Source: Hydractinia symbiolongicarpus
Taxonomy: Eukaryota; Cnidaria; Hydrozoa; Anthoathecata; Hydractiniidae
Length of the DNA: 64,000 bases
Reading direction: 5' to 3'
Assembly (NCBI RefSeq): GCF_029227915.1
Contig: NC_079882.1
Coordinates: 7,812,001-7,876,000, forward strand
Made by a program: the position numbers and the translations under genes. Under the pieces are notes generated by a model. That model saw only the letters and a list, made by a program, of their open reading frames with translations. It did no database searches and was not told where the DNA came from. This document shows positions 353 through 59,231 of the stretch, one piece after another; the first letter of the stretch is position 1; each line of letters starts with the position of its first letter.

Positions 353-2278
353 CTTTTACATAATACTCAAATAGCAAATACTTATTCGATTGAAACCCGG
401 GAAAATAAATTATGTGGTTTACGATTGAGTATAGACGATTATCTCAGGAAATTGGAACCCTTGTGTCAAATTTAGCTCTCATTTATAATTTATTTTTAAA
501 ACTTCGGCTCAAAATATAAATTGTTGCTTATATCCAATGTTTATCAATCCTGCAAACTTTAGCACAGTCATTTATAAACTTGTTGCTTATACAAAAACAA
601 GAACCATGTGTAGTATAAATGTTTTAAATAGAAAATGAGAACCCCTTAAAAAAGGTAGAGAAAAGTGTTCATTAAAAATCTAAAAGTCATTGAATGTGCC
701 ATAGTTTCTGAAATAGATTTTTGTCTTAATTGTACAACTATCTTTGTATACAGCGGGTTCCTTACTTTATATATCCCAGTATTTAAGTTAGTGGAAAATT
801 ATTTTGTGGAAAGTATTCGAAGTATTACAAAATTCGTCACGTTTTTGCAAAATTTAAAAGTTAACAGAATAATAAAAATATTGTTATTTTTTATTTATAT
901 TTGTTATTTTCTGATAATAGGGTAGTGGCTAGGACGAATACAACAAATATATTGTCCTTATATATTTTTGTTTGTTTGTTTTTAAGCTAGTTAACATCGA
1001 TGCTTAAAAAAAATTTGCGTGGCATATGTATATGTTTTCCTTATTTGACTCTAATTCAACATTTTTCATGTAAACCATTTACGTTTTTCAAGCTTTTCTG
1101 TGAAAATTTGTTATGCGTTATTTGTGGCGTTAACTATGCTTGTACTTAAACTTCAATATGTTACACCTATCACTTCAGAGTGCATAATTTACAAAACGTT
1201 CTAGTTAAATATCTGATATATCACTCCTTTTAATAAAAATGAGGACTTTTAAACAGTCCTTCCGTCACGAAATTCCCCTTTTTTTTAAAGCAATGAAATG
1301 TCAAACAGTGCCATGTTCGAGACGAACATGCCGCCGGAAAAGGCCTCGTTACGTTACCCTCAAATGCACAGTTTTTCTAGGTGTAATATTTGATAAGATT
1401 TGTTTCAATGTATCAAAGTTTTATATATGACCTTACAAAGTTAAGCGAGCTTGGCGTTTACGCCACATGTTTTTGTCACCCTTCATAAGAAGCAGACAAA
1501 CTGCTTGCATATTGCTCTAGATTTTTTCCAAATGTATAAGTATATTCATACAATCATGTTATTAAGGCTATCGTATACTTGAAATTCAAGCAATTTAGTT
1601 GTGTGTATTTTACTAGATTTATTGGCTAGCAATGAATGGTTACAAAACTTTAGCTAGTGGAAACTTTGAAATTGATTTGTCCACCTGATTATAACACTTC
1701 ATTGGCTCTATAAGGTGAAAAAATTAAATGGTCATGTGATTCTATGTGCCTGAGTGAAGGTAGCTAGGCAGAAATTTAACTTTATATTAATTTTTTTTAT
1801 TTTTATTTATTTTAACCGAACTTTAGAATTCTCATTTTTTGATATGTGTCTGTATTGCAGCTTTTATGTGATGACCGAGATTTACTGTATTTTAGTAGCT
1901 CTTAGTAGGGGTTAGCAACCTAAATCATAAACAGAAAACAAATAATTTCTTTTGAGTTTTTCTTGGTACTTAAAGGATCGTTTGTCCATCCGTGACGATC
2001 ACTGAGTTTCGTAATAGCCCCTCAACAAGAAAACAATGCTGATTAAAATAAATAAAAATTGAAAAAGATATAAATTCAGATCTTGATTATTAGCGTATAA
2101 AAATATCAGTAATTACCGCAAATAAATAATTATCACCAGTACTAAAATTACCCAAATTTGAGCGTTGTGCAAACAAAAAAGCTTTTCTTCTTTTAACTCA
2201 TATGCTTCTGGTTGAAAACAAAAAGCACCCATAAGAAAAAAAAATTATATAAATTTATAAAACGAGAACTCCATAAGT
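353..2278. other. Intergenic, no gene seen
   Basis: AT-rich sequence with only short, non-convincing reading frames and no domain that could be recognised. It should contain the 3' UTR of the minus-strand gene ending at 2279. A TTTATT cluster at about 1801-1812 reads as AATAAA on the minus strand and is a weak candidate poly(A) signal. Confidence 0.5.
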
Positions 2279-6147: not shown

Positions 6148-9100
6148 ATGGCAAAATTTGCCGCATTGTTTTCCTTGGCCGTGGTATTACTAGCGAAAGT
6201 ACCGCAAGTAAAAGGTGAGTCTATTTTTTACTGGTGTCAGAAAAACCATAGAAAAAATATGTATAGCGTTAGTTTATGGCTAATTGTCTTTTTCGAAAAG
6301 GAATATGTAGCGATCAGTGTGATAATAGAAATGGAGTACTCTTTCATTCTTTTTTCCTATTTTAAATGCAAGAATTATTATTGGTTAGGAGCTTGAGTTA
6401 AAATACCGGTGTGCTGATTCAACACATATATACCGGATTGCTTTATTTTAGGACTCCGAATTATGTTTGAGTCTTCAGTTTAAGACAATTTATGTCCGTT
6501 AATTATTGGCGAAATTATTATAAGAAAAGACGAATGTGTTTTGAAATGGAGGGGACAATACAGCGACCAAGAAGGGCCTACCATAGTTGGTGTTGTCTTT
6601 GAAATTTAAGATCTGAAGATTGGTTAAAGCACTATCTAAATTCTAAAGTTTACCGTGTTTTCAAAGTTACATCTACACCCCCTTCCGCTAGTTTTATCGG
6701 CCTTATTATCATTTGTGAAGGTAAATTTGATAGACTAATGTAGTCAAATATAAAAATTCGCCGTTACAATATTTACGTATACTGAAATGCTTTTTATGAG
6801 GGACGTCAAACTAAGTCAATAAAAACCAGAAGGAAGGAAAACAAATTGACGTTTTGTGTTTTAATTTAAATGTAAGCAATTGTCAAGCCTACTGATGAAT
6901 AAATCTGCTGACAATCGATCATTGCAGATAACATCTTTCTCCAAAAATTTATTATATTTAAAATTTCAGGAGAATGTCAAATACGAGCAGACCTGTTGAT
7001 GTTGGTTGATGGCTCTGGTTCAGTGACAGGATCTGGTCGTCGCGCGACAGGTGATCCAAATTACTATAAAAATTATGTCTTCAAAGCTTTGAAAGACATC
7101 ATTAATCAATTCAATGTCGCCGAAGATCAAACGCATATTGGTACGCTGTTTTATGGCGACAAAGACATGAGTCAAATAAAAGCTGACGTAAGCATTAATC
7201 ACTGTCATTTAATCCAATAAAATATTCGCCCTAAACCTTTAGTGTATAAACAGTTTCAGTTACTTGATGTGATGCTAATGCATTTGTGTACGGCGTTATC
7301 TGCCCATAACAATTTTAATCTTCCACTAAATTCATGAAAACAGAAAAAAAATGTTTTGCTACCTCTTTTATTAACTTTGCAAATTCTTTTGTGCTAAATT
7401 CCATCCAAGAAGTGGTATAGAGGAAGTTTTTCTTCTTGATTCCTTAGCAACATGGTACAGATGAATTGAGAAAACTGAAAAATAATCTTAGTAAGGATAA
7501 TAACATTGGATTTGAACCAGAACCCGTGTTTCTATTCTTCCACTATTGCAGAATAAAAGTTATTAAATGTCAGTTAGAAATAGAAAAATAGAAAAAAATA
7601 GCGATGTCGCCTACCCCACAAGTGTCTCCTTTGTTTTACCGCTAAGATCTTTCGATTTACACGCATAGTTATGATGCGATATAGAAAGCGATTACCAAGC
7701 TACAACAGTTATCTCAATGCAAGGTTAACATTGTTTTTTCACCTTAAGGGATGGTATTTTGGTCTCGACAAGTACTATGAAAAAGAATCAATGAATAAAT
7801 TCTTTGATGACAAGCCACAAGGGCCAACATTCAGAGCAACGTACACTGGTGCTGGTTTGATTGAAGCAAGATCCATGCTAGATGCCAGCAAACGAAAAGC
7901 TGATTCTACAGTCGGAACTGCTGTTTTGCTTCTGACTGATGGTTACGCTACCGATACCTTGAATGCTGACAAAGAGGTAGAAATTTTTGTATACTAGATG
8001 TATGTCCGTATGTATGAACAGAGGCCACAAAGGACTTTTCGCTGTTTTTAATTTTCCATTTAAGCTGCGGAAGATTTGCAATTTTCTACTAAATTTAAAA
8101 AACGCCTTAGAATTTCACACCTGTCATATTTCAAATGCACGGTGAAAAAAATACTCTGTGGTATTGGCTTTGAAATAAGACCGCTAAATGTATACGCATA
8201 ATTAAATTATTTTGCTTAACATTTTGGGACTAAAAATTAATCAAGGATACTGTTATCTTTGCAAATTGTCCGTGCATAAATAGCCTTTAAAAATAACTAT
8301 TGGCAAAATTACTTGTTTCTCCAAAACAAATTGAAAATTTTCAGAGCGTTACAAGAAAAATCATTATAACAGAAAGGTGTGACTCGAAAGATGTAACTAT
8401 TATCCCTATTATTAAGTTTAGCGCAAAGATTCGTTCCATTTTGTTCCAACTATTTCAAATTTTGTTTTGTTTTTATCCGCGATCAATTTCATATTGATTT
8501 CAATCATTCAAACCAATCAAGCATTAACTTCTTTTGTTTCGAACTTAATTACTATACCTGATTGGTTAAAAGTATTTGAGGCGGGAATTTTTTGAACATC
8601 AACAAACGCATTTTTCATTTTTGTAATAAAACAGAAATTGCATGTCCATTTTTTGTTGAAGTGTCTCGGCTATAACTTGTGAAATATTAATTTCCCTCGA
8701 GTGGATAAGTCTTGACATTCAACGATTATATTTCATTAATGAAAAAGGATAGACATGAGCACTGATAGGTTGTATTCAAGATTTCTTTTTGTTTATGTTG
8801 ATTATACCAATGTGATTATGTTAAAAAGTTATAACACAATTACCTACCTTTTAGTTCAGAAAAGCCAAATCAGACAAAATTGCTGTAGTGACAGTTGGTA
8901 TTGGATCACAAATTGACGAAATATCACTTAAGAAATGGGCAACCAGTGATGAGTACTATCTCAAAACTGGGTTTGATAATATCGCAAGTATTGTACCAAA
9001 ACTGAAAGCCATTTTATGTAAAGGTAAAAATAAGTTAGAAGTTTTTGTATTGTTTTGTAGCATGTCTCGTGTTTTATTTATTCATTTATTTAAACATTTT

Positions 9101-12100
9101 AGCGTGCATGCGAAATTTAAATACTCTCAAAAGTTTTGAATAAATATAATCACGAAGTTAGATATCTCCAATATGAAAACTTTAATTAGAAAAATATCTG
9201 TATCTATCTGCTGCTTCAGTATAACTTGTCTATCCTGTAGTTTGTCACGCGGTCTATTTAAATATACTTTTATGTTACATTTTTCTAATTTTTATTTGTT
9301 TTTATTTAGCTATTGCTGAAGTTGCACCAGCTTCAGTCAATCCTCGTAAGTATATTTCGAATTAATATATATTTCAGATTTTTATTTCGCTTTTGAAATA
9401 GTTTATAACCCTAAATTAGGATTTCTACATTAAGATTTAAAATTTATAACCTCATTGCTTAATATTGATTTGCGAAACGAACGTAAAAACCCTTTTGTCT
9501 TATTTTTAGCTGCTCCAAAACCTGATGAGAACAATTACTGCACACAGCAATTTACTGGTGCAAAATTTTGTTGGTTGTTTGATCGTGTTGTTGAAAGTAA
9601 CAAAGTGCAAGATTTGATCACGCTGCGATATGCAACTTTACATTACGTAAGAATTTTTTCTATTTGTTATATACCCTAAATGGTACTAATTTTGACGTTT
9701 TTCGCAAATTTTGACGAAATTTGCGAAATTGTGTACCTGCGAAATATTCTTCAAAACAACATACTCGAAAAATTATTATCTTCAAAAAGATCCAAAAATA
9801 GTTCGTTAAATTATTTATTTCAAAGAACAATTTTCTTTGCACAATAAAAAGTGAAATGCCAGCGTCAAAATTCTAACAAAAGATCAATAAAACCGTTAAA
9901 GTTTTATTAAGGAAATGCTATATTCTTAAAAATTATTTTTAAAACATTTGTACTTTATTCGCGAAAATTGATACCCAGGAATTGTATTTCTTCTTCGATC
10001 TGTAAAATTATTTACCCGCAAAAATAAGAACCACTATGTTTAAATAAATTGGTAAAAATTTCAATTTTTTAGTCATTTCAAACAGCAATATGAAAAAATC
10101 ACTTCCTTGTTCTTTTGTGTATCTTTTTGTTTTTTGCTGTTACTATTGTTGTTGTTTTGTTGTTGCGTGTGTTATTGTTGTTGTTGTTTTTGTTGTTGCT
10201 ACTGCAGCTGTTGTCGTTGCTGACTTTATTATTGACTTTTCATTTTTTAATTAAATTTTAGAATGCTCAAATTGCTCAAGCTTCATCGCATGGATATTAT
10301 TTAACTTTGTCACATGCTGACATTAGCACACATGGTGCAGGAAAATATCCTTACGTTGATATGGGAAGTTTTGCAGGTATATACATTTTAAACGCTGTTT
10401 AAACCATTTCACTTCATAAAGTAAAGACGGTTTCTTAAGACAATATTTTTTTAATATACCTTAATCTGATATTTCTCTATTCGTTCATGAAGCTAAAAAT
10501 TAAAATTTTTTACATATTATTTGTCATTTTGTTTTAAAACAACTTCGAAAACCAAATCCTTCAATAAACAGGTTATATTTTTTAAATTAAAGTCTATACA
10601 ATCTGTTAAAATTTAGATTTTTTTTGAAATGTTTGTATCATTTCTTTAGGACAATGTGTGTCGGACCCTGATAAGTGTCCTGCTGGTATCACTGTTATGT
10701 TTTGGCTGAAAATGACATCAGCGATGATATCTGAAATGTTGGCTCTTGAAATGACACATCAATACATTTTATCCAGCGGTGGACAAAAAAGTGACTCGAG
10801 GTAAATCTTTAGAATTTAACAAGTCTTTGTGTTTTTAAAAAAGGAAAGCTACTGCACAATACAGCGTTTCTGTGTATGTATTTGAATATGTTACAAGTAT
10901 GCTACAATGCTTATAATTTTGTTCAGAGGTTTCGCCTTCTTGTACCAAAAAGATGGCAGTTATGAAGGGTTCAAACTACAATTGCAAGCAATGAACATGG
11001 ATTATGTAATTGAAATGAAAAGTATTCCAACGAATTGGTTTTTCGTAACTTTTACATGGCATGCAGAGGCTGATGGTATGGTATTATTTTGTTGTATTTA
11101 AAATAACAAAAAATTAATCCTACTATAAATTTTTACAAAGAACCTGGCTAAGTAAGATCAGATGAAAAAAAAATAGCAGAAATGTTTTAATTAATTACAT
11201 ACCCTTGTAATAGTGTTTCTTTATCAAAGTCTTATTTTATTACTATGAAGTTAATGAAGCTGTCTTGAATATAACTATTGTTGCCTTTTTTTGCAGAAGG
11301 TGATGGTGGTGGGGCACGCTATGGATTATATTACTATCAAAATGGTGTACAAGTTGGAAGCGCTGGAACACCTGTTAAAGGAAATTATCCAACGGATGCT
11401 CAAACTACGTTAACTATTGGAAAACCTAATTTTGGAGATAAATATTTTGGTCGATTTTTAATGGATACCTTTGTTATCTACTATCAAGTTGTTTCACAAT
11501 CTCAGATCTTGTCGAGTTACGGAGGAGGTAATTTTATGTTTATTTCAGCTGATAGTGGGAAATTTTTAAATCACTTCCAGATCTAGAATAAGCGGAACCA
11601 CCGTTTCGTTTCTTCCTAAAATTAGTTTTTTAAGTACCGCCAACCCTCGCTTATCATGCTTTATTGAAATCTTTGAATCCCTTTTAGGAATTGGAAGTCC
11701 AGGTGGATCCTCCTCTTCAAGTTCTTCTAGTGGCAGCAGCAGCAGCAGCTCTAGCAGCTCTTCTTCGTCGTCCTCGTCGTCTTCGTCGTCCTCTTCGTCT
11801 TCTTCTTCGTCTTCATCCTCAGGCTCGTCCTCGTCAAGTGGTGGAAGCTCAAGTAGTGGAAGCTCAAGTGGTAAGTTCTTTCCTTACTTAGCACATAATT
11901 AAAGTAATATGTAGCTTTCAAATTACGTTGTGAAAAGGGATTCTTAATTCATAGCTCCCACCTAAGCATCAAAGAAAACGTGTATCTATTCCAGTTGAGT
12001 CAGTTCAAGATCCCTGACAACTAGATTATAACGACTGTAGCTATTTTGTAGAAATAGACTTGCCTCGTCAATCATGTAATTTTTTTGTTTCAATTTTAGG

Positions 12101-15100
12101 TTATACTATCACCATTAAAGTGTACGAATATGCTCGTTGGTTCTGGGCATTTAAATCAGTTACGACTACTGGAACTGGGCAAACGATCTCACCTCTTCAA
12201 CAGCAAGATGCCAATCACAATGCTGTTTTAGGAGTGAGTAACTAGTGATTATTTACGTAGCCTGTTGGTGTTTGTGGCGGTATGCTTCAGTTCCAATGAC
12301 CTTGAGATTTTTTAATTAAGGGTTAATCTAGTAATGGAAAGTAACATTTGTTTGTTTACTCTTTTGGGAATACTAAAACTAGCAATCTTTGTTTACATAG
12401 GGCGGTGCTAAATTATACAGCAGTACTTTAAGAGGACAAGTTCTTTGGTTTGAATCATTTGGTGCTTTTGCAGTACTTGGAGATTATGCTGGTAAGTGAA
12501 AAGTATAAAAAAAACTTTTTTGGTTTTGCATTAACACATGCAACCTTGGAAATTGTTTCCAGCTCTTTAAATTTTTAAGTTTAAGACCTTAGTGAGATGA
12601 ATATTTTTTTGTTTGTTAGACACTTGCGTGAGCGATCCTGATAGATGTTCAACAAGCGATGAAGGTGGCGAAGTTGGAAGTAATGGCTTCACCCAGGGAT
12701 TAACTGTTGCTTTTTGGATGAAAATTACATCAGCTGATTTGAGCATTGCAGACGGTGATAAAGACCAACAGCACCAATATATAATTTCCAGTGGTGGGCA
12801 GGTCAGCAATTCAAGAGGTTTTTCATTTTTGTACGCAGCAGAAGAACAGAAATTCAAGTTGCAGTTACAAACGAAAAAATATGTATACATGATTGAATTT
12901 GACAACATGCCAGAAACATGGGCACACATTGCATTCACATGGAAAGCAGAAGGTGAAATAGATTATGTTTAGTCTCATTAAATATTACTTTACCTACAAA
13001 CATTTTGCTTTGTTCACGTATCTTTCGTTTCTTTGCTTTTTTCACTTTTCTTCGAAGCAAAAAATTGTCTTTTAAGTGGATTAGAAATTAGTGTTTGTTA
13101 TCTTCAGTTTGACTTTTAAAGAGAACCATTTTAGAGAACCTGTGACACTGTTATCTATTATCTTTTTATTTTAGGCCAACTGGTTTTGTACATTAATGGT
13201 CAATTGAAAGATACAAAGGATAAACAAGAAAAGACATTTGAGTCTGATACACATACTAAACTTACATTGGGAAAACCAAATCATATTGATAAACATTTCG
13301 GTCGTTTCAAGATGGACATGCTCGCTATATTTTATTACCAATTGACTTTATCACAAATTGAGCAAATGTCTGGTCGTAAGTCCATTCATTTTTTAATTTT
13401 TTTCTTTTCCCCCTCTCATTTCTATCGTTATATAATAAAGGGTATTTTTATTTAATAGAGAAAATTGAAGGAGGTAGTGAAGGAGGTAAGGAAATGCTTT
13501 TCATAGCTGACGCTCTCTAATTCGACGCCCCTTTATTCGTTAACCTCTCGTTTTCGATACAAATTTGAGGTCCCGAAAATTTTGCTCCCTTATTCGATTT
13601 CTAGAGTGTAAAACGGCCTTTACACGTTTTCGAATTTCAAACGAGTTTCAGGCTTCGGATTTTCGTACGTTCGATTTCTAAAAGTTTTCAAAACAAACAG
13701 GTTCCCAAGAAAAAACTTGATATTCTGCAGAATGTTGAAAACAAAATAGTCTCGTTTATTTTTTGCATTCCGCTCTCTAATGCGACATTTACCCCCAAAT
13801 ATCGAATTAGAGAGGCTATTCGATAAGCTCTCTAATTCGATGAATATCTCATTCCCCTTGAATATCGAATTAGAGAGCGTCAACTGTATGCTAATTTGCA
13901 TCTGATTGCAAAACTATCGTTGTAAAGCTAAAGGCACAAACACGTTATATATTATATAAAGGTTCAAATGTACATAAACCTCTGAATATTCTCTTTATAC
14001 ACACACACTTTGTATGCACACACATACTCCGTACTAGGTAACACGGGTGATCTTGGCGCGCCCACTTTATCGCCCACAACTCCAAGCACAAACACTGGAC
14101 CTTCATCAGCTACACTGCCTATAACAGTAACGCCTACGTCTCCAGGTAGCACTTCCGGCAGTAGCAGCAGCGGTGGGAGCAGCAGCAGCAGTGGTTCCTC
14201 GAGCGGAAGTAGCAGCAGTTCAAGCAGTGGTGGTAGCGGTAGCAGCTCTAGCAGCGGTGGCAGCAGTAGCAGCAGTGGAGGCAATAATGTCACACCTACA
14301 GGGGGTGCCCCAGTTACACCAACAGCTGCAGCCACTACGAAACCAGCCGTTGGAACAACCATCAGACCGGCCACGCAACCACCTACAAAGGTTACCCCAA
14401 CAGGTAAGAAGACCTTTCGCTTTGTAGACTGCTAGTTTGAGGTTTCTAACCATTAACCATCCACTTCTGGCTGTATGTTAAGAAATTTGTTATGTGCCAA
14501 TATAAACATTCTGTTTGAGTATAAAAGCTTTGGTGCGTTGGTTTCTTTTAGACAAACCGAACGGTGTTTGTAATGCCAAGGTTGATATTGTATTGGTTGT
14601 TGATAACTCTGGTTCAATCGAAGCAAGAGGGAGAGAAGGCTACTTCGAGCAAATCAAAATGTTCATTAAAAACATGATGAAATTATTCAAAGTTGGTACT
14701 TCAGCCAATGTTGCGATTATCGAGGCATCTTCAGATGCTCGTGTGATTGCCAAATTTGGCGATGTAAAAGATAAAATGTCGTTTGATCAATATATCAACA
14801 ATTTGAATTATAAACGAGAGCGTTCTTTCATTGGTAAGTTCTTTATGTACACTCTATACTGATTGGTTGATTTTAAGGATTTGTCGTACATAGTTTACGA
14901 AATCGTTTTAATCGATTCGTACTTACTGTCTTCAAAATCACTGAATATCTATGACACGCGGTTTTGCAGTCACATTTCTTATTTATTCGTATATTGTTTA
15001 TATTGTCTTTTCATTCAACAAAGTACCATTTGATTCTTGCCCGTTTGTCATATTCACCAATGTTTTAACATTTAGGAAAAGCTCTCGAGTTAGCTAGAAC

Positions 15101-18100
15101 TGACGTCTTTGCTAAAATTCAATGCAAACAAGGTGCTAAGCTAATGCTTGTCATTACTGATGGTTATGCTTCTGATGACGTCACACTACCTGGAATTGAA
15201 TTACGTGACATGGGTGTGGTTATGTTAGGTATTGGATATGGACCCGAAAGTCAGCTGATGAGGTACACCCTGGAAAGCCTGTCATCAGATCCAAAGGATC
15301 AATTCACATTCATTTTCTGTTATGATAGATTGGTTGAATCAACACAACAAATTGTTAAGCGAGCTTGTGAAGGTACGTGCATTTTTAAAGAGCCTTCGTT
15401 AAAAATTGTTCATTTTTAAAAAGTTCTTAAATACAAATTTTTTTATATTTTTCATTGTTGTCGTAATGTCATTGTTGTCGTAATTTTTTAAACCGATTTA
15501 ACTAAACATTATCTAAGCATTTCTTGATTGTACTCTACCCATGATCAGGAATGGATAGTTTCATTGACGGTGCATGTTCTTCTAAAATATCAACAAACTT
15601 TGTAACAAACTGTATTTTCATTTTTTTAGCTGCCATGGAAGCTTCGACCGTCGATACTACAGATAATGTTGATAATAATCCTATCAAAGGAGGTGGGTCT
15701 TACTGCAACCAATGCTCTAAAAATGTAGCAGGAAACAAAAAAATACCCAAGCTAATTTAATGTCAGAACCTTTAGCAGAAAGAAAATTTCGCGTAAATTG
15801 CGCTAATAATACGTTTTGCGTTTATTTAAAATCGGATCAATTTAGACAAATGATGTTAATTATACTTTAAAAATGGAGATTCGCAAAATTAATTACGCAT
15901 AATCTAGATTTAGCGGGAAAGTATTTTTCGCGATTCACAACATATAACATTGATCTATAATTTTTTAATAACAATGTGATAATATACAAGCTACATCATA
16001 GAAAACATTTATCCCTGTTAGTGTGTATAAACGTTCCCAAAAAGAGTCCATCCTATATACCGATCTTATATACCTTAACAACATCGCTATTTTTTACTTT
16101 GTTTTTGATAATTTTAGCGGTAGGAACAGAATTCATCACGTATTTCATGAACGAAGCGAACAGGTACCGAAGAGAGCACAGTGCCATCCCATTGACATGG
16201 TCTACAGAGCTTAGTTTGAAAGCTCAGCAATGGGCTGAATACCTGGCTGGTGAAGATAAGTACGTATCACTTCTGGTAGTAAACTTATAAAGCAAATAAG
16301 ATATTTCTAAACATTGTTTTGGAGCACTATTTGATTAGCAACTTATCAAATATCTCTCTCGTCAATAATTGTAGCAAATAGGTTCTTATTTGTTTATTTA
16401 TTTTCATATTTATATTACCTTGAATTTTATTTTAGATTACTAACGAAACCCAAAGTTCATTACGGACAGACGTTGTATATTTCTCCTAAGCCTGGACCAA
16501 TCGCTGCGCAGATTGCTGTTCGTGCTTGGTACAATCAAATTATATATTTCGATTTCCAAAAACCAAGAATCTCAGAACTGAACAGTTATTTTGTTCAACT
16601 CGTATGGCGATCAACCACTGATGTTGGTGTAGGAAAATATCAATCAGCTTCCGGCAAAACATACGTTGTGGCTTTCTACAATCCTGTTGGAAATAGTGAT
16701 GATGGACTGACTTTCAACGTGTTGGCAATGACAAGTAAGTTAGACGGTCTATGGTAACAACAGCAACAATGAATTTTTTTAAGGAAAAAAGGGGTTTTTT
16801 CTACTGAAAACATACTGAATAAAAGTTGTTTTTTTAATATTGAGTGGATTCAGTAAACTTTTTCAAAACAATAAAAAAAATGGCCGCTGAGAAACATATT
16901 GTAAGAAGGGAAATCAGTATATATAGGCATAACGTATCATTTGATCTTCCTTTTCAGGTTCTGCCGTAACAGGAGTTAAATCTGGTTACTGCCCAACTGG
17001 CTATCAAGCTAGCAGTGAATATTGCTATAAACTGTACTCTGAGCCCGTTACTTGGGAAGAAGCTGTTGCAACGTGCAGTGCGCAGAAGGGAGCATTAACA
17101 TCCATCACCCGCGATGAAGAGCATTATTTTATTTTCAGTGTTCTCCATACTCATTCTGTAAAGACGACATGGTTAGGCCTTAACGACAGGTAAAAAATAT
17201 CAATTTATTACTTTAATTCTTTGCTTCGATTTTATAGTTTTACAATGCCTCTATTTCAATGTCAAGGAGTGGTTTTTATACCGATTCAGTTTTCTATACT
17301 AAAAATAAATAATCATGATTAAATAACAAATAATTAACCTTTCCTTTTATCTGCATTTCTTTTCTTTTAGAATGCAAGAAGGATCATTTTCTTGGGTCGA
17401 TGGCGCCCCATTGTCGTTCAATGGTTGGACCAACCCACCAGAAGTAGATGGTCAAAAGAATTGCGTACAATTGACAACTGATGTTGGATGGGAGAATGTC
17501 GCATGTGACGCGCAAAATCCATTCATATGTAAAACAATCAGACCAGGTAGACTTGCAAACTTAAAAACCTGTCTTTTTAGTGATCTCTGTTCATAGTGCA
17601 CACTGTTACCAAATGCTATCTTCAAATTTTTAGGTGACTTGATTTTTATGGTGACTATTCATTACCCAACACAACCATGGTCACAAGACTTAGTGTATGG
17701 AACAACACCGGCTGCTGTTGAACTGATACAACGTGTTGAAAAATTGGTAAGACTTTTTGTTATTAAGGATTACTTTTACTACCACGTAGGTAAATTGTCA
17801 TTTTGTTCTTTTATCCAAAGCACATGCTCGTAAAACTTATCTGTGTTAATGTTAGAAAGAACCCGTTGTACTCACAAAGCTGCCAAACTCGTTTTTATTT
17901 TCATTGCTCTTTACCTGTTTAACTCTCCCTAATTTTCCTCCTAGATCATGAGCATTTATGGTACAAAGGATTGGTTCTTGAGCTACACAATTAAAGCCTT
18001 CAGGTAGGAAAAATGCAATCAAATGAGAATTTTTAAACTGTCAAACAACAATTTGAAAACGAATGCAAATTTTCCAAATCTCCTGCTTCATCTACGGGGC

Positions 18101-19607
18101 ATCTTGTATTTTCTCTGATAATGGGACGTTGATAACCGAGGGTCCCTGGAAATCTATCCCTCTGCTGCCTTTTTAATAATTTTTACATTTTTCTTCTGCA
18201 GAGGTCATGTCAGTGTGTTCATTGATATGGAGCTTCGCTTCTCTCCAACTGCACCAATCGATCCCATCGCACCTCTGAAGAACGTCACATACACAGAAGA
18301 TTGTGATGATTTCATCTGTGATTTGACTGACGTGCAAATTGTACCAGGTAAAGTGCCAGATTTTGCAGTTAAACATCAGGTGGAAGGTTTTGCAATAACA
18401 AAAAGTGATTGTAGTAGATCTGTCGTTGTGAAAACATAAGTATTTAACAGATTGATTTTTACATTGACTTAGTACTTATAAGAAACAGCAGGCTTTCAGG
18501 CTTTCCTGGTAAAACTGTTTAAAAGTAAAAAATGTAAAGTATTGAGAAAAACGAAAGGGTGCATGAAGGATTAAAATTTATCATCTGTTCTTTCAGCTGT
18601 CAACATCACATATAATGGAACTTGCTCGCCAAGTTGCTACACAAGTTGTACACCAAACTGTGCTCCTGCATGCTGCTCACCTCAGACACTTCCTACATAC
18701 TATACGTATGAAGTAGTACAAGTGCCTGGAGATACATCATCTGTTCCTCCTCCGCCTCCACCTCCCCCGCCGCCGCCACCACCACCTCCACCACCGCCAC
18801 CACGTAAGTACTTAATATTTATATTTGGAAAGATGACCACGTGCATTTATACTTTAATTAGTGTGTTAATTTTTTACGTGAATTTAACATTTAAAAGCAT
18901 TCAATTTTGTTGATTTAACACCTTAAGGGAATTAGGCAAGTAAATTAGGCAAAAGAAAATTTCACGAAGATTCTCAATGTACATCGTTTTTCAAGGGCGT
19001 TTATGTAGGAGGCGTTATATAAATACTGCTGAAGTTGAAATTGACATATATGTAGTTCCAGATAAACCAGAAATAAAAAAATTAATGTCATCTTTTGAAA
19101 TGAAAAAAAAATTTAAATTTTGCGGAAATTAATTTTTGCGAAATTGATTGGAAAAAACTGGCGATATTCGCGAAAACTTTCCAAAAGACCTTGTATGTAT
19201 AAATATGACATATTGATAGTAATCGTTGTTACCGCCGTCCAGTTGTTACATGTTAGCAACCCATTTGCTTAAAAATTATTTTAAAAAATTGTAGCACATT
19301 AAAGAAAATGAATACAAAAAAGGTATATGCAGTCCAAATCTTAAGGTTTTCGAGAAACGATTGAAAAAGCACTCTTAACATCTTAGCATCGTATTCTAAA
19401 CAATTATAAAATCATTGCATCAAACATATGTCTTACTCAGATCCTTCTTTTTTAGCACTTCAACCACCACCGACCTTTTCATACTGCGCACCCGACTGTC
19501 AAACAACATGTACAAGTGCATGCCCACCAGAATGTTGCAGTCCAATATCAAGAAAAAGAAAAAGGATGGAAATCATGAAGAAAAGATGGTTTCCACAGAA
19601 ATCGTAG
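6148..19607 (+). CDS. Nematocyst-type mosaic protein: VWA, LamG x2, VWA, SCP, C-type lectin, SEA, minicollagen CRD x2
   Basis: 29 exons join with GT-AG boundaries into 5004 nt (1667 aa) without a stop. Exons: 6148-6214, 6970-7187, 7749-7976, 8855-9023, 9310-9345, 9510-9646, 10262-10376, 10650-10800, 10927-11075, 11297-11527, 11688-11870, 12100-12233, 12401-12491, 12620-12952, 13175-13375, 13459-13485, 14038-14403, 14552-14833, 15076-15372, 15630-15692, 16118-16259, 16436-16734, 16958-17189, 17371-17546, 17634-17746, 17945-18003, 18202-18347, 18597-18803, 19456-19607. Exon 1 encodes a signal peptide (about residues 1-23). Minicollagen cysteine-rich domains drive disulfide polymerisation of the nematocyst capsule wall. 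NOWA, a known capsule-wall protein, also joins SCP, lectin and cysteine-rich domains. The inferred role is a secreted capsule-wall or capsule-matrix component made in cnidocytes. No Gly-X-Y collagen stretch is present. The last residues are basic (RKRKR). Alternative exons cannot be excluded. Confidence 0.85.
6970..9023 (+). other. VWA domain 1 (exons 2-4)
   Basis: Residues about 26-227. A MIDAS metal-binding motif is visible: DGSGS near the start, TYTG in exon 3 and LLTDG in the fourth strand. VWA domains bind ligands through this metal site and are common in extracellular matrix proteins. Flanking introns are phase 1; the two internal introns are phase 0. In exon 4 the acceptor at 8853-8854 (TTTTAG) keeps the frame, whereas the nearby CAG at 8858-8859 does not. 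A 12-codon exon at 9310-9345 follows as a linker. Confidence 0.85.
9510..11527 (+). other. Module A1 plus LamG-like domain 1 (exons 6-10)
   Basis: Exons 6-7 encode module A1 (residues about 240-323), an unnamed segment that recurs later in the gene. Exons 8-10 encode a laminin-G/concanavalin-like jelly roll (about 324-500), starting at CVSDPDKC and including an SSGGQ turn, FTWHAEAD and a FGRFLMD segment near the end. LamG domains bind glycans or matrix proteins, but no ligand can be predicted here. Confidence 0.75.
10144..10222 (+). repeat. GTT-rich intronic microsatellite
   Basis: Imperfect (GTT)n tract inside intron 6 of the mosaic gene, shortly upstream of the exon starting at 10262. Simple sequence, probably length-variable. 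Confidence 0.75.
11688..11870 (+). other. Poly-serine linker exon 1 (exon 11)
   Basis: One 61-codon exon almost entirely of Ser with a few Gly, Pro and Ala. Codons switch from AGC runs to TCN runs, the look of repeat expansion under selection for the residue rather than the codon. It separates the two A+LamG units and is probably a flexible, possibly O-glycosylated spacer. Confidence 0.8.
12100..13375 (+). other. Module A2 plus LamG-like domain 2 (exons 12-15)
   Basis: A second copy of the A+LamG unit (residues about 562-814). The intron between exons 12 and 13 has the same phase (0) as the one between exons 6 and 7. CVSDPDRC, SSGGQ, FTWKAEG and FGRFKMD match the first copy at the same places. 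The intron that splits copy 1 after SSGGQ is absent here, so exon 14 corresponds to exons 8 + 9. Confidence 0.78.
13459..14403 (+). other. Microexon and Ser/Thr/Gly linker exon (exons 16-17)
   Basis: A 27-nt microexon (13459-13485, Gly/Ser/Glu) and a 366-nt exon (14038-14403) rich in Ser, Thr, Gly and Pro. Both are bounded by phase-1 introns, so either could be skipped without a frame change. They form the spacer before VWA 2 (residues about 815-945) and are likely O-glycosylated. Confidence 0.7.
13506..13886. mobile_element. Tigger/pogo-like MITE inside intron 16
   Basis: Inverted termini GACGCTCTCTAATTCGA (17 bp, perfect) lie at about 13509-13525 and 13864-13880, with TA dinucleotides outside (13504-13505 and 13887-13888) as a possible target duplication. 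The right end reads CAGTTGACGCTC on the minus strand, a form recalled from Tigger/pogo ends; the left end has lost a base or two. Further inverted CTCTCTAATTCGA copies lie inside. At about 381 bp it has no coding capacity. Confidence 0.55.
14552..15372 (+). other. VWA domain 2 (exons 18-19)
   Basis: Residues about 946-1138. DNSGS and VITDG give the first and last parts of a MIDAS site. The middle motif reads SFIG where VWA 1 has TYTG, so a Ser stands in for the usual Thr ligand; metal binding may be altered but is not excluded. Intron positions differ from VWA 1, arguing for separate acquisition or old divergence. A 63-nt acidic linker exon follows (15630-15692). Confidence 0.82.
16118..16734 (+). 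other. SCP/CAP domain (exons 21-22)
   Basis: Residues about 1160-1306. It begins with a helix carrying NEANRYRREH and ends with QLVWRSTTDVGVGK and a YVVAFYNPVGN strand, the CAP signature arrangement of GAPR-1-like members. The His of the usual GHFTQ motif is replaced by Tyr. CAP domains also occur in NOWA. Confidence 0.82.
16958..17546 (+). other. C-type lectin domain (exons 23-24)
   Basis: Residues about 1307-1442, with six cysteines as in long-form C-type lectin domains, the WLGLND core and a WENVAC segment near the end. The EPN or QPD calcium/sugar motif is not present (PPE stands at that place), so classical calcium-dependent sugar binding is doubtful. Confidence 0.87.
17634..18347 (+). 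other. SEA-like domain (exons 25-27)
   Basis: Residues about 1443-1548. The order MVTIHY, a helix ending in VEKL, an IYGTKDWF loop, then AFRGHVSVFIDMELRF follows the SEA fold pattern. The self-cleavage motif GSVVV reads GHVSV, so the nucleophilic Ser is missing and autoproteolysis is not expected. Assigned by pattern, not by search. Confidence 0.6.
18597..19607 (+). other. Two minicollagen cysteine-rich domains flanking polyproline (exons 28-29)
   Basis: CRD 1 (18623-18676) and CRD 2 (19485-19538) each fit CX3CX3CX3CX3CC exactly, 18 residues each. Between them lies a run of about 20 prolines, split by the last intron, followed by LQPPP. Minicollagens carry such CRDs next to polyproline at both ends of a short collagen helix. 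Here the collagen helix is absent and the whole cassette forms the C-terminal tail. Confidence 0.9.
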
Positions 19608-22867: not shown

Positions 22868-25066
22868 TTAAATGTGCTCTATATAGGACGCTGGAACTAA
22901 ACCTTCTCCGTGTACCGAACGCACTTTAAACCAGTCGTCTTCTTTATGTATTAAGACTAAAATTTGTCCTTCGTCTAAACTAAGCTCTTTCTTATCTTCA
23001 GCTTGAAAATCATATAAGGAACGCAATATAACATCTTTGTTATCTATTAGAAGAACATACTGTGATGGGAAGAAGCCATCTTCATTCTTGTACCTTCCAC
23101 GCCACCACCCGGTGTCTCCCTTTTCTAGAACTTCTATCTTGCATCCAGCTTTTAAAGACAAGTGCGTATCGTCCGTCCCGTCAAAGTCGTACAACGTGAC
23201 GCACATCTCGTCGGATGATGATAGAAGTTTTGGCTTCGTTGCTATTGCGGGCTTCTTTGAAATTTTGGGTTTAACGTTTTCCGCTTCATTACTGAATGGT
23301 TTAAACACTCTCGTTGGAACCACCGGAAAAACGGGCATGGTGTGTCTACGTTCAGCTTTGTTATCCGCAGGTTCATTCGGAAGTGGCTTATTTATCGCAG
23401 AAATGCCAGGGTAATGAGCTTTAATTGGAATTAATGGCTTAGTACTAATAACAGGTTTACTTGGAAAGCTTTGAGGAATATCAGTACGGGTTGGCAAAGG
23501 TGGTGGAACAGGCTGTTCTTCTTCTGTGTCAGACAGCCCGTCATAAAATTCATCATCATCGTAACCCTCTTCATAATCGCTTTCAAGATCGATCAGATCG
23601 GTAACAACTGAACTCTCTGCAGCCATTTTTCCTTCTGCTGACTGTAATTTACTTTTTTGCTTGATTGGCACCCCATCACAAAACGGTACGTTCACAGCAC
23701 ATTTCTTATGCACAGGCATCTTGCATAACTTACAAACGAAGCCTTTACTTATCAAAGATATCAATTTACTGCAGTAGAAACACATGAGGGGCTTTATAAG
23801 CGGAAGTTCGGCGAATTCATGCGGTTTCTCCCCTTCTCTCTGAGTATTCGAAGGTTGATGGACAGGTGACTTGTGTGAATGTTTACTTTCTTGCATAATG
23901 TTTGCGGGTGGTGGTCCCAAATAGTTAACCACCTCGGGCGTATACAACTCCATCTGTTTCAATAAGACATTCAAGTTTGCTTCTTTGTCACATATACAAA
24001 GCAAGTCAATCACTTCATTTAAGGAAGGGTCGTCACCGTGATACAAGGCTCGTAACTCTTCACTATCGCCGGCTCTCATGGACGAAATCGCGTCAACTAA
24101 TTGGTTTGTTTGATATTGTAAATACGCTAATCGTCGATGTAGGTTGGGTCGGGTGAATTTATTCACAATGAAGGCTTCTTCTGACTTTTCAGAAGCTACG
24201 CTAGTCCGTCTACTTTGTTCGATCCGGGGGGCAGAAAATTCTTGTCTTGGAGGATTTTTATCCTTTAATCCTTCTTTTATTGTGTGTTTTACAAACTTTT
24301 TGAAATCGGAAACAATATCAATCTTCTCTGCCGCGTGGTCCATCTTGTCGTTGGATTTCAAAAGTTTCTTAAATGTATCTTTCTGAACTGAGAACATATA
24401 CTTAACGTGGTGTCGAAGACTATCATTTAACTCGGCTTGATTCTTCTCCAGGCAGTACAGCACATGTGGTAACACATGAGTGTAGTGTAAGTTATTTATG
24501 CTATTCACAGACGACAATCTTAGCAGATACGTATTGTGACTGTTGTTATAAAACACAATCTGTTTAGTTTTCGGATTAACCGTGCTTCGGGTTTTTGCTG
24601 TGGCGTCAGAGTATTCTTTGTATCGTTTGACCAAGTCGTCCTCTTTCTTTTGAATTTGTTCTTGGTAAGTTTGTACATAGTAAAAACACGTCTTCCAGAC
24701 TTCTCTCTTTTTTTCCACAACCTCTTGAAGAGGTGTAATCACACAATCAGCAAAGGTCGCTCCAACAGAATGTAGCGTTTCAGCCTGTGTTTTCATCTGC
24801 TCCAGTATTCGATGAAGAAACTTAACAAGCGATTCATTCGGACAAAATTTTTGTTTGTTTACTTCGGGGAGTTTTTTTGTGAACGCATCCACAACGTTAA
24901 AAACGTTCGACGCTGCCTCGTCTTGTATGGCAGCAATCTTATGAGACAGCTCGAGGAGGCTTTTGCTCAACTTGACGAAAAATAACAAGTTTTCATGTAC
25001 TCCCTCAGCCAGAGTGGGTGATACACTGGGATAGCTGGGTGTTACATCCGGAAATGCTGCTGACAT
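22868..25066 (-). CDS. F-BAR / C1 / double SH3 protein, 732 aa
   Basis: A single uninterrupted reading frame. Residues 1-290 look like an F-BAR domain (long helices, with a YNNSHNTYLL region typical of the FCHSD/Bzz1 type), which bends membranes. A C1 zinc-finger pattern follows at about 415-465: H-x12-C-x2-C-x12-C-x2-C-x4-H-x2-C-x6-C, all ligands present. An acidic stretch (residues about 490-515) and proline-rich sequence come next, then SH3-1 (about 620-675, ALYDF-like start, GWWRGR) and SH3-2 (about 677-732, ending at the C terminus). The order F-BAR, C1, SH3, SH3 is that of fungal Bzz1, which promotes Arp2/3 actin assembly at endocytic sites; animal FCHSD/Nervous wreck proteins have F-BAR and two SH3 domains. 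A similar cytoplasmic role is inferred. The ATG lies 10 nt after a TGTAG acceptor-like site with a T-rich tract. Confidence 0.88.
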   Translation of the reverse strand: MSAAFPDVTPSYPSVSPTLAEGVHENLLFFVKLSKSLLELSHKIAAIQDEAASNVFNVVDAFTKKLPEVNKQKFCPNESLVKFLHRILEQMKTQAETLHSVGATFADCVITPLQEVVEKKREVWKTCFYYVQTYQEQIQKKEDDLVKRYKEYSDATAKTRSTVNPKTKQIVFYNNSHNTYLLRLSSVNSINNLHYTHVLPHVLYCLEKNQAELNDSLRHHVKYMFSVQKDTFKKLLKSNDKMDHAAEKIDIVSDFKKFVKHTIKEGLKDKNPPRQEFSAPRIEQSRRTSVASEKSEEAFIVNKFTRPNLHRRLAYLQYQTNQLVDAISSMRAGDSEELRALYHGDDPSLNEVIDLLCICDKEANLNVLLKQMELYTPEVVNYLGPPPANIMQESKHSHKSPVHQPSNTQREGEKPHEFAELPLIKPLMCFYCSKLISLISKGFVCKLCKMPVHKKCAVNVPFCDGVPIKQKSKLQSAEGKMAAESSVVTDLIDLESDYEEGYDDDEFYDGLSDTEEEQPVPPPLPTRTDIPQSFPSKPVISTKPLIPIKAHYPGISAINKPLPNEPADNKAERRHTMPVFPVVPTRVFKPFSNEAENVKPKISKKPAIATKPKLLSSSDEMCVTLYDFDGTDDTHLSLKAGCKIEVLEKGDTGWWRGRYKNEDGFFPSQYVLLIDNKDVILRSLYDFQAEDKKELSLDEGQILVLIHKEDDWFKVRSVHGEGLVPASYIEHI

Positions 25067-25076
25067 TTTTTTTGAT

Positions 25077-28000
25077 CTACATTAAAAATAATAATAATAA
25101 CAAAAACTAAGAAATAATTGTACAATATAATAATAACAGCTTCTTAAAAAAACAAAAAACAAACAGAATAATAACAAATACAAAGGTATACCCGAAGCAA
25201 CACTTGACTTGTTAACATAAAAAACGTATACAACTAGAAAATATTTAACAAATGATGTATAATCCGTACATGTAACAAAGGTATTATTCAAATTATATAC
25301 TTTTTGTGTCAGCCACTATAAATGTCAACAAAAAGGCAATTAATAAAGTGAAATAACAAGGATAAACATTGTGCAATACAATTTGACAATAAAATAGTTG
25401 ATGAGAGCCGAGAGTCCCATGTCATGTCATGCCTAGCTGGTATAAATGATTACAAAAAATCATGTCTCATAAATGTTTTAAAAATGTTTGTGAAAGAAAA
25501 AAGAACGCTTTCCACTATTTTAACAGGGGGAGAATGAATCACATAACCGGACGTTATGTTTTCTTTGTAAAAAAGTGTTTTTGTAATTAAGGCATTTCGA
25601 GCCATTTAAGTACAGATCATTGCTCTATAATATGCTTATAGTGTGTTCGTGAAGGACAATGTTGATTTATACTTTTGTTAACAATAGATGAAAGAATATG
25701 TCTTATTTCCTAAACAATAAATTAGCTATTTTGGCATTATGTTATTAGTAAAGTCGTTTGAAGCAACATAACTTGGAAATGGTGGTGATGTTAGTTGTTT
25801 TATCTCCACATAGGCAACCACGTATCACCTCAAATTAAATTGTGAAAATCCCCTAAAACTGGTTGAAACCACCCATTTCGGAACTCCTGAATTGAGATGA
25901 CATCATAAAAAACTGTACATCTTAAACCTACTGAGCCTGTTTTTTTTTTTAACTATAACTTTTGATAAATTTGTCCGAATTTAATCAAACTTTTTTGCCC
26001 CATAAATTTTGCCCCATTTCTGGGTAAACTCTGAAAAAATCCAAAAACCAGATTAATCACAGCCTAAGATTAACAGAATAATTCCCCCTGATGAAATAAG
26101 GATGTGTTGCAAATTTCAAGGATAATCCTAACAAAAGTTATTATATTCCCAGATTATGAGTTTTTCAGAGAGATTTTTAGGGGTAATTTTGAGTAATAGC
26201 CTATATCTAAAGCCTTAAGAGGTATGGGACCTAATAATTTGGCACATAGGTGTCTAACAAAGAAATAAAATCTCAATAAGTATCATAACCATGCACATAG
26301 TAAAAAAAGATTTGAATAAAAAATCCTAGCAGGGGGACTGTTAATATCGCCTGAACTGCTCTTACATAATCCTAATGTCTCATCCTCGAACTCTGTTAAA
26401 CTGTATTCAAAGCTCGCACTGCCTTTTCTCCTTATAAAAGTGTGATGTTTACCTCCTTTGTTCGCAAAATAAGCTGTAATGGAGTGTTAGTTTTCCCGAA
26501 TTATCGTAAAGGTGTATTCAATTGGGATCTAACACAGGACAGAATTTTGGCAGTAAAAAACTTTTATTTTGGTTACCAAGTAAATGTGACAATATCATCT
26601 TTTATATTCATCATCATCTTGGTTGCATGAATACATGGAATCACAGTCCCAATATCTACTTGCGCACGCAGTGAATACGTAATACCCGATGTGCGCGCAG
26701 AAATGGAGTTAAAAATGCAAACAAACTAAGCGGAAAAGTTACTTCCATTTCTGCGCGTTCAGGAAAAACACGGCACTATGATTGAGTGTATTGTCATGTT
26801 ATATTCTTGTGGACGAAAACCCGTCAAGATACTAGCCCAATTATGGGCTGTTATTCAGAATAAGAAGCCGTTATGAAATGGTGTATGCATGCTGTCTTTG
26901 TAATCAAAACCTTCATAAATTCAATACTGGATTTTTTTTAAGAATTTTTTTTCTATCTTCAAATCTTAGTTGCAAATGTTTTAGATACTGGTTAATTTTT
27001 GCCATTTAGTTAAACTTTAAGGCGTTTTTGCTTGAAGTTTTTTTTAATTAAGATTTCTACTGTTAAGGCTTGACCATGAAAAGTCCATGTTGTACACCAA
27101 AGAAAAGCACAGAGAATAATCCGACTGCAAGAATATACCTTTTCTAAACATATGAGAATGTTTTCTAACAAATATCTTTGGTTTCAGAAACTTTCTCGTT
27201 ATCACCCCTGAGTAGTCCGGGGCATATAGTACTACGCTCATCAAAACTTGTATAATCACATATATATTGATGTTAAGGATTCGAGGATGTGGAGATGACA
27301 TCACATCTGAGGGACAACCTGAATTTATTATATAACTTGCAAAGAAGAATGTTTTAGGAACATTTGACCACAGTGTTTTTTTGTCCCAAATTATGCGATA
27401 ATCCTGTTAGTTAAAAACCAAGCCACATGACTTTTTTGCAAAGAAACTGTGGCTTTTAGCTAAAAGATTACTATGACTGGTTATTTATAAAGGCAGTAGT
27501 TATGTTCATATCTTTTAAATAAAACAAATTTTAAAGTTACAACTACCTGGTGATGACTGGCAAAACAAACACAAACACAAACGGTTCTGTTCTGTTTAGA
27601 ACACTCTTCCACGCCGCGCCGCCCTGTTACTAATCAAGTTGTTTAGGCACAGGTTGCTTTGGTGTACCATAGGGTGGGTGCACGGACCAGTTTACTATGC
27701 AACCATTTTCCAAGGCCTTTTTGTTTATATCGAAAGAATGTATATATATCATGCATTTAAATCCTTTCAGAAAATGATAAATCCAACATTGAAACCGAGT
27801 AGCGTGCTTTGTTTCCCTTGGTTTAAGAATCGCAATCGTCCTGTATGTAACAAATTAACAGTCCGTAAGGTTGGTTAACAAAAGAAAAAGAAAAAAGGCT
27901 GCTATTTTCATTAGTTTATGGTATGAAGGCAATCTTATTGTTTAGATCTTTTGTTCTTTTGTATATTTTCATTGTTTATCAAACCAATCGGATTCAACAT

Positions 28001-58432: not shown

Positions 58433-59231
58433 TCACTGGACAAGAACAATGTCAGCAATTTTTTCATCAAAGTTGTATTTGACCATGAATGTTTTGTTAG
58501 AAATCCTAAGCATCAAATTTCTTGGCGACGGGACGTACCTATGGGACTCGGGATTGGCACGAAAAAATGCTTGAATTGCGGCCGCAATACAGTTCTCTGT
58601 CCCCAAATCAGTAATCAGTTCATCTGGGCATTCTTTATTTTCAATAACGCAATCAACGAACATCCATGCTTGTCACGTTTAACCATAATATTTTTCTGCT
58701 AAAACCATCGATAGCACCGTGAATGGGGAAACCATATGGCTTCAGTTTATCATATCCGTCAATGTGCCAGGCGAAGTTTGGGTCAGGATTCGAATATTCC
58801 CTCCTCTTAAGACGGCGGGATTTTCTGAATTCAGTACCTTCGGGATCCAACTCACGTAGCAATTTAGATACAACACATCTTGGTATATCCCATCCTTCCA
58901 TTTCTAGAGTATTCCAAACAGTACAATAACCACCACATGACCCTGGACCGTCAACAATCTCCCGTATTCTTTGTTCAATTCTTTGATGTGAGTTAACAAC
59001 ATTGCGATTACGTCTACACAGCCCATAACTTTTAAGGCGTCTTAGAAGCGTACTTTTGCTTATGTTGCAGTTGTGTTTCCTCTCAAGTAAGAGAACGATT
59101 TCTGCATACTCAAAACCACAGTGAAAATAATATTTGATTACATTTTCTTCATCGAAAATGGCGTCCTCTGTGGACTCTTCTAAAAATACAAAACATTCGT
59201 TGCGATGCAGCCTAGCAGGAATTTCTCAAAA
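58433..59231 (-). pseudogene. Broken integrase/transposase gene (HTH plus rve-type integrase core)
   Basis: On the minus strand, a helix-turn-helix-like segment (NISKSTLLRRLKSYGL, about 59070-59020) leads into FAWHIDGYDKLKPYGF and AIDGFSRKILWL, with the first catalytic-type Asp. A frame change near 58655 follows, then LGTENCIAAAIQAFF with the next acidic position and HRYVPSP. This is the integrase-core layout of transposon-derived integrase genes common in cnidarians and fish. Stops, the frame change and missing sequence mark it as dead. It converges on the HECT remnant 123 bp away. Confidence 0.7.

Follow-up and report, generated by a model that had tools for sequence, protein, structure and literature searches.

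The window analysed here, a 64,000-nucleotide stretch of Hydractinia symbiolongicarpus DNA, carries a plus-strand gene that runs in frame from an ATG at 6148 to a TAG at 19605-19607. Starting from 29 approximate exons judged by eye, a dynamic-programming splice search that allowed GT or GC donors and AG acceptors no more than 14 nt away closed on a model of 29 exons and 5004 nt encoding 1667 amino acids, reproducing the coordinates of the original prediction. As the approximate exons came from the span of that prediction and from our own reading, the search is a check on the closure of the model and not an ab initio prediction. All 28 introns have GT/AG ends and lengths of 83-878 nt, and 19 of them, including the intron between exons 20 and 21, are in phase 1. 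In a search of the 64-kb window, the encoded protein matched nothing beyond the gene itself. The modules of the protein are listed in Table 1.

Table 1 Modules of the window gene, with window positions
Feature	Residues (aa)	Exons	Position	Strand	Basis
Start codon and predicted signal peptide	1-23	1 and first bases of 2	6148..6971	+	Hydrophobicity
VWA domain 1 (DGSGS motif)	24-227	2-4	6972..9022	+	Pfam VWA, E 4.1e-17, cut out
LamG module 1	240-500	5-10	9345..11526	+	Pfam Laminin_G_3, E 9.2e-12, cut out
Serine-rich linker (50/62 Ser)	501-562		11527..12101	+	Composition
LamG module 2	563-815	12-16	12102..13460	+	Pfam Laminin_G_3, E 1.1e-16, cut out
Ser/Gly/Thr/Pro-rich linker	818-947		13467..14556	+	Composition
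VWA domain 2 (DNSGS motif)	950-1140	18-20	14563..15634	+	Pfam VWA, E 6.1e-28, cut out
CAP (SCP) domain	1162-1312	21-23	16123..16974	+	Pfam CAP, E 9.4e-15, cut out
C-type lectin-like domain (CTLD)	1320-1441	23-24	16996..17542	+	Pfam Lectin_C, E 6.7e-21
SEA-type module	1441-1548	24-27	17540..18346	+	Likeness to NOWA module, shared exons
Minicollagen CRD 1	1558-1575		18623..18676	+	Exact C-x3-C-x3-C-x3-C-x3-CC
Proline-rich spacer	1603-1627	across intron 28	18758..19484	+	Composition
Minicollagen CRD 2	1628-1645		19485..19538	+	Exact C-x3-C-x3-C-x3-C-x3-CC
Short basic tail	1646-1667		19539..19604	+	Sequence

Modules of the encoded protein

Hydrophobicity along the whole chain peaks at the N terminus (19-residue mean of 1.79 at residue 1), where a signal peptide is predicted from hydropathy, without a dedicated signal-peptide predictor. 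For the rest of the chain the original prediction had named two VWA domains, two LamG domains and one each of SCP, lectin and SEA, and had suggested an HMM search of each; Pfam bears out both VWA domains, CAP (also found at E 2.9e-13) and Lectin_C, and recovers both LamG modules as cut-out pieces, whereas SEA taken alone stays below threshold. In the whole-protein Pfam scan Laminin_G_3 was absent and Toxin_R_bind_N fell on LamG module 2, with 26.5 bits against a cut-off of 23.8. When this module was cut out, LamG scored 61.8 bits and Toxin_R_bind_N 29.9 bits on the same piece; we set the latter identity aside and, because LamG scores higher, read the match as reflecting the jelly-roll fold that we take the two families to have in common. 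Both VWA domains retain D-x-S-x-S, a motif that allows metal-dependent ligand binding. The EPN/QPD and WND sequences, the sugar-binding motifs of CTLDs, are missing from the aligned CTLDs of the window protein and of the NOWA protein of this genome, leaving lectin activity uncertain.

As had been predicted, the protein ends in two exact minicollagen CRDs. In all six frames of the window the exact pattern occurs twice, both times in this gene, and it was absent from each of 40 single-base shuffles. The closest solved structure to CRD1 is the NOWA CRD 2hm3, with a weak E value of 0.024; for CRD2 the best match among solved structures, a NOWA CRD mutant, is not significant (E 2.4). Published excerpts describe CRDs as cross-linking through disulfide exchange and as adopting N-type and C-type folds that form different oligomers, a NOWA N-type CRD having been converted to the C-type by G4V and K14P (PMC4863159). 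CRD1 of the window protein (S4/A14) has neither C-type residue and CRD2 (D4/P14) has one of the two. A NOWA peptide with P14 and without V4 is represented by two structure entries, 2hm4 and 2hm5; this peptide is taken to sample both CRD folds, and it would be speculative to see in CRD2 a switchable cross-linker.

The principal alternative to this model is that two adjoining genes have been fused in it, an extracellular matrix (ECM)-type VWA–LamG–LamG–VWA gene reaching to about exon 20 and a NOWA-like gene beginning at about exon 21. NOWA has its own start just ahead of CAP, a break here would coincide with a phase-1 module boundary, and VWA and LamG lie near one another without CRDs on contig C15 of the same genome. 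An alternative ATG, at 15551, leads into exon 20 and has a usable phase-1 donor, but it is weak, with a hydropathy of 1.38 against 2.82 at the true start; the more hydrophobic starts at 14573 (2.15) and 14951 (2.22) lack a phase-1 donor, and in the scanned segments 14404-15075 and 15374-16117 no ATG combines such a donor with a strong hydrophobic N terminus. Intron 20 is, moreover, only 425 nt long, AATAAA and ATTAAA are absent from introns 17, 19 and 20, and the frame is kept across exons 20 and 21. From these features of the sequence we favour a single gene, and regard two as unlikely.

A NOWA gene in the same genome

The genome searched (G000) comprises 481 Mb in 76 contigs and holds the window on contig C8. 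Searching it with a protein query assembled from CRDs yielded five matches: both CRDs of the window gene, a pair of fragments from one locus at C8:4.148 Mb, and C8:7225560, the last of these close to a CAP match at C8:7223008. At this position we identified an 11-exon gene encoding 727 amino acids (G000:C8:7220812-7226408), on the same chromosome and strand as the window gene and about 592 kb from it. Its product consists of a signal peptide, a short segment, CAP, a CTLD, a SEA-like module, six CRDs (one exact and five with a longer first spacing) and a basic tail. Pfam finds Lectin_C and CAP in it, with SEA at E 3.9e-4 and 21.0 bits, below the cut-off of 26.4. The first of its CRDs agrees with the solved CRD of Hydra NOWA, 2hm3, in 16 of 18 residues (E 7.9e-10), and on the basis of this match we take the gene to be the NOWA of this animal.

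The C-terminal 500 residues of the window protein follow the NOWA order of CAP, CTLD, SEA, CRD and basic tail. Pairwise comparison of the modules gave 46/151 identities for CAP (25.8 SD over 500 shuffles), 37/117 for the CTLD (27.3 SD over 500 shuffles) and 28/110 for SEA (14.8 SD over 500 shuffles). As CAP and CTLD are large families, it is the SEA value and the exon structure that carry the argument for kinship. Exons 26 and 27 of the window gene equal exons 8 and 9 of NOWA in length (59 and 146 nt), with the three bounding intron phases identical and the junctions aligned. The intron inside CAP differs in position between the two genes; of the two introns in or bordering the CTLD, neither agrees with NOWA in position or in phase. 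By itself the window segment has SEA as its top Pfam match, but at E 0.022 and 15.3 bits, below the cut-off of 26.4, and against solved structures it returned three Internalin chains at chance level; a two-sequence profile of the window and NOWA segments ranked chain 1ivz, which we take to be a SEA domain, first in the PDB (E 0.011), directly ahead of Internalin chains.

Among open reading frames from 15 loci, the window protein is the best match of both the NOWA CTLD (62.8 bits, next 46.6) and the NOWA CAP (69.3 bits, next 54.7), although two other CAP genes come slightly ahead of NOWA as matches of the window CAP (74.3 and 73.9 bits). The trees are too weak to settle kinship: that of CAP joins window and NOWA at a support of 41, and that of the CTLD pairs NOWA with another CTLD at 75, the window joining that pair at 73.

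The order of the NOWA family, CAP followed by C-type lectin, SEA and CRDs, is present in the window gene, with SEA recognized through its homology to NOWA, whereas two further traits of the family, a CAP domain near the signal peptide and many CRDs, are replaced by an intervening VWA–LamG–LamG–VWA head and by two CRDs. A family member would further be expected to lie in the nematocyst tube or capsule and to be required for invagination. Because the head lies between signal peptide and CAP, we call the gene a paralogue or variant of NOWA and not NOWA itself. It probably encodes a secreted NOWA paralogue with a VWA–LamG–LamG–VWA head, which would act as a CRD-cross-linked adaptor to matrix.

Comparison with known proteins

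The original prediction knew of no precedent for this chain of domains. In excerpts of published work, CAP, lectin, SEA and CRDs together constitute NOWA (PMC11565402, PMC10014300, PMC3627010), so that the chain is not without precedent along its whole length; the joining of the head to them stands as unusual. NOWA proteins of Hydra and other hydrozoans are described with a signal peptide, CAP, C-type lectin-like domain, SEA and CRDs in the order found in the window protein, and the Craspedacusta protein as SP–CAP–LectinC–SEA–repeats (PMC11565402). With the NOWA of its own genome the window gene shares the basic tail and the SEA exon structure. That protein, at 727 residues against 1667, has no VWA–LamG–LamG–VWA part and only a short segment between signal peptide and CAP, whereas in the window protein no segment is seen between signal peptide and first domain; it has six CRDs, and Hydra NOWA eight (PMC10014300), as compared with two in the window protein, both with 3-residue spacing. 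Read from the model, the unusual feature is the VWA–LamG–LamG–VWA head with its two serine-rich linkers ahead of CAP.

Minicollagens, like the window protein, combine CRDs with polyproline; they also have a short Gly-X-Y collagen domain between CRDs, whereas the Pfam scan found no collagen domain anywhere in the window protein, which has only the proline-rich spacer and whose CRDs are both C-terminal. Cnidoin resembles it in having CRDs without a collagen helix, but its CRDs flank, on either side, an elastic repeat rich in Gly and Gln (PMC4321713). Cnidocyte-specific vWFA proteins and four NOWAs are reported from Nematostella (PMC12549020) and share VWA domains or NOWA kinship with the window gene in a comparison by name, not by architecture, so that an anthozoan counterpart may exist. 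The best database matches of the window protein, collagen VI-type VWA proteins and BMSP of Mytilus, arise through VWA, and CAP, CTLD and the CRD cassette are absent from their listed Pfam domains. The protein database yielded generic VWA or lectin matches and no orthologue (2/7993, 0/2593 and 11/5694 candidates scored), which means little given the uncertain cnidarian coverage of that database. In the nematocyst and minicollagen literature, as screened through titles and abstract openings, no such mosaic appeared. VWA and LamG do have precedents in nematocyst or polar-capsule proteomes (PMC4619090, PMC5566210), and in myxozoans the sequences that match the nematocyst proteome of Hydra include VWA, LamG and SEA domains (PMC4619090).

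Other CRD loci

Across 61 loci, CRDs were found in the window gene, in NOWA and in at least five other places (C8:4.15, 10.78 and 23.87 Mb, C12:16.97 Mb and C15:8.54 Mb); the survey used two queries and covered CRDs other than those of minicollagens proper, so that this count is a lower bound. None of the five coincides by coordinate with VWA or LamG among the matches listed, the VWA list being itself a lower bound with 150 of 373 candidates scored. With CRDs on several unrelated scaffolds in this genome, the CRD seems to be a cross-linking tag that can be moved from protein to protein.

On the chromosome that bears both NOWA and the window gene, a minus-strand 500-codon open frame (G000:C8:4147876-4149375) is a further lectin–CRD mosaic: its first 285 residues contain a galactose-binding lectin domain of the SUEL type (Pfam E 1.2e-13), and eight exact CRDs follow. 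The other open frames carry six CRDs with polyproline (G000:C8:23870724), two CRDs in a Ser/Thr-rich context (C12:16971002), two CRDs of which one lies beside polyproline (C8:10782920) and three CRDs in a Lys/Glu-rich context (C15:8536150).

Proposed location and role

Two further alternatives bear on what the CRD tail means. One is that the protein is a secreted matrix or glue component from outside cnidocytes in which the CRDs are incidental. VWA and LamG occur generally in the ECM, and nothing resembling a minicollagen propeptide was seen in the window protein. Against a non-cnidocyte origin, the C-terminal half is NOWA-like, and the CRD proteins minicollagens, NOWA and Cnidoin are nematocyst components in the excerpts consulted (PMC4321713, PMC10014300, PMC12549020); we consider this origin improbable. 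Least probable of all is convergent shuffling in a CRD-rich genome, by which the CRD tail and CAP–CTLD would have been combined independently of NOWA, for although the further CRD loci, the weak CAP and CTLD trees and the dissimilar introns of those domains would allow it, SEA residues, two exon lengths with their phases and the whole domain order are held in common with NOWA.

For the NOWA paralogue that we prefer, a location in the nematocyst is what we infer. The original reading of a nematocyst-type mosaic is supported, more strongly than was first argued, by the NOWA order and by the SEA exons shared with the NOWA of this genome; its placing of the protein in the capsule wall is now doubtful, since a 2023 report puts Hydra NOWA on the invaginating tube instead of the wall and proposes a lectin–chondroitin zipper (PMC10014300).

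We propose that the VWA–LamG–LamG–VWA head may have been joined to a NOWA-like gene by exon shuffling through phase-1 introns. In developing cnidocytes the protein would pass into the nematocyst vesicle, and its CRDs would form intermolecular disulfides with the CRDs of minicollagens and NOWA, while the serine-rich and proline-rich spacers would hold off the head and the lectin-like parts, leaving these to bind chondroitin or other matrix proteins. The protein would then serve as a covalent adaptor that links the CRD polymer to an ECM-type matrix of capsule or tube, and an adaptor with its tail in the polymer and its head on matrix appears to be its most likely role. A more specific version, which we put forward only tentatively, is that of a stinging-organelle adaptor in which the CRDs lock into the disulfide polymer and the metal-site VWA and LamG domains, on flexible spacers, reach chondroitin, collagen or membrane, so as to couple the wall of capsule or tube mechanically to the matrix around it. 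We know of no described nematocyst protein that provides a mechanical wall-to-matrix link of this kind. The capsule wall withstands up to 150 bar (PMC4863159), and a NOWA relative with adhesion modules offers a single-gene approach to how so pressurized a wall is tied to its tube and matrix. Stinging-capsule diversity may grow by the shuffling of ECM modules onto CRDs.

Further observations

On contig C15, a minus-strand stretch (G000:C15:3134160-3146500) carries, one after another, a VWA domain, an acidic open frame of 1375 codons and low complexity, and a LamG module that resembles those of the window gene; their membership of one gene is putative, and the two stretches read there contain no CRD. 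Near-identical VWA scores recur at paired places on C4 (about 0.29-0.39 and 8.89-8.98 Mb) and C3 (30.9 and 33.75 Mb), and a tandem VWA array lies on C5 at 10.74-10.76 Mb. Elsewhere in the window, both on the minus strand, a single 737-codon open frame at 22871-25081 encodes a C1 domain and two SH3 domains, and a mobile-element-like open frame at 58656-59225 has a sub-threshold HTH match and an integrase-core match at E 5.4e-10.
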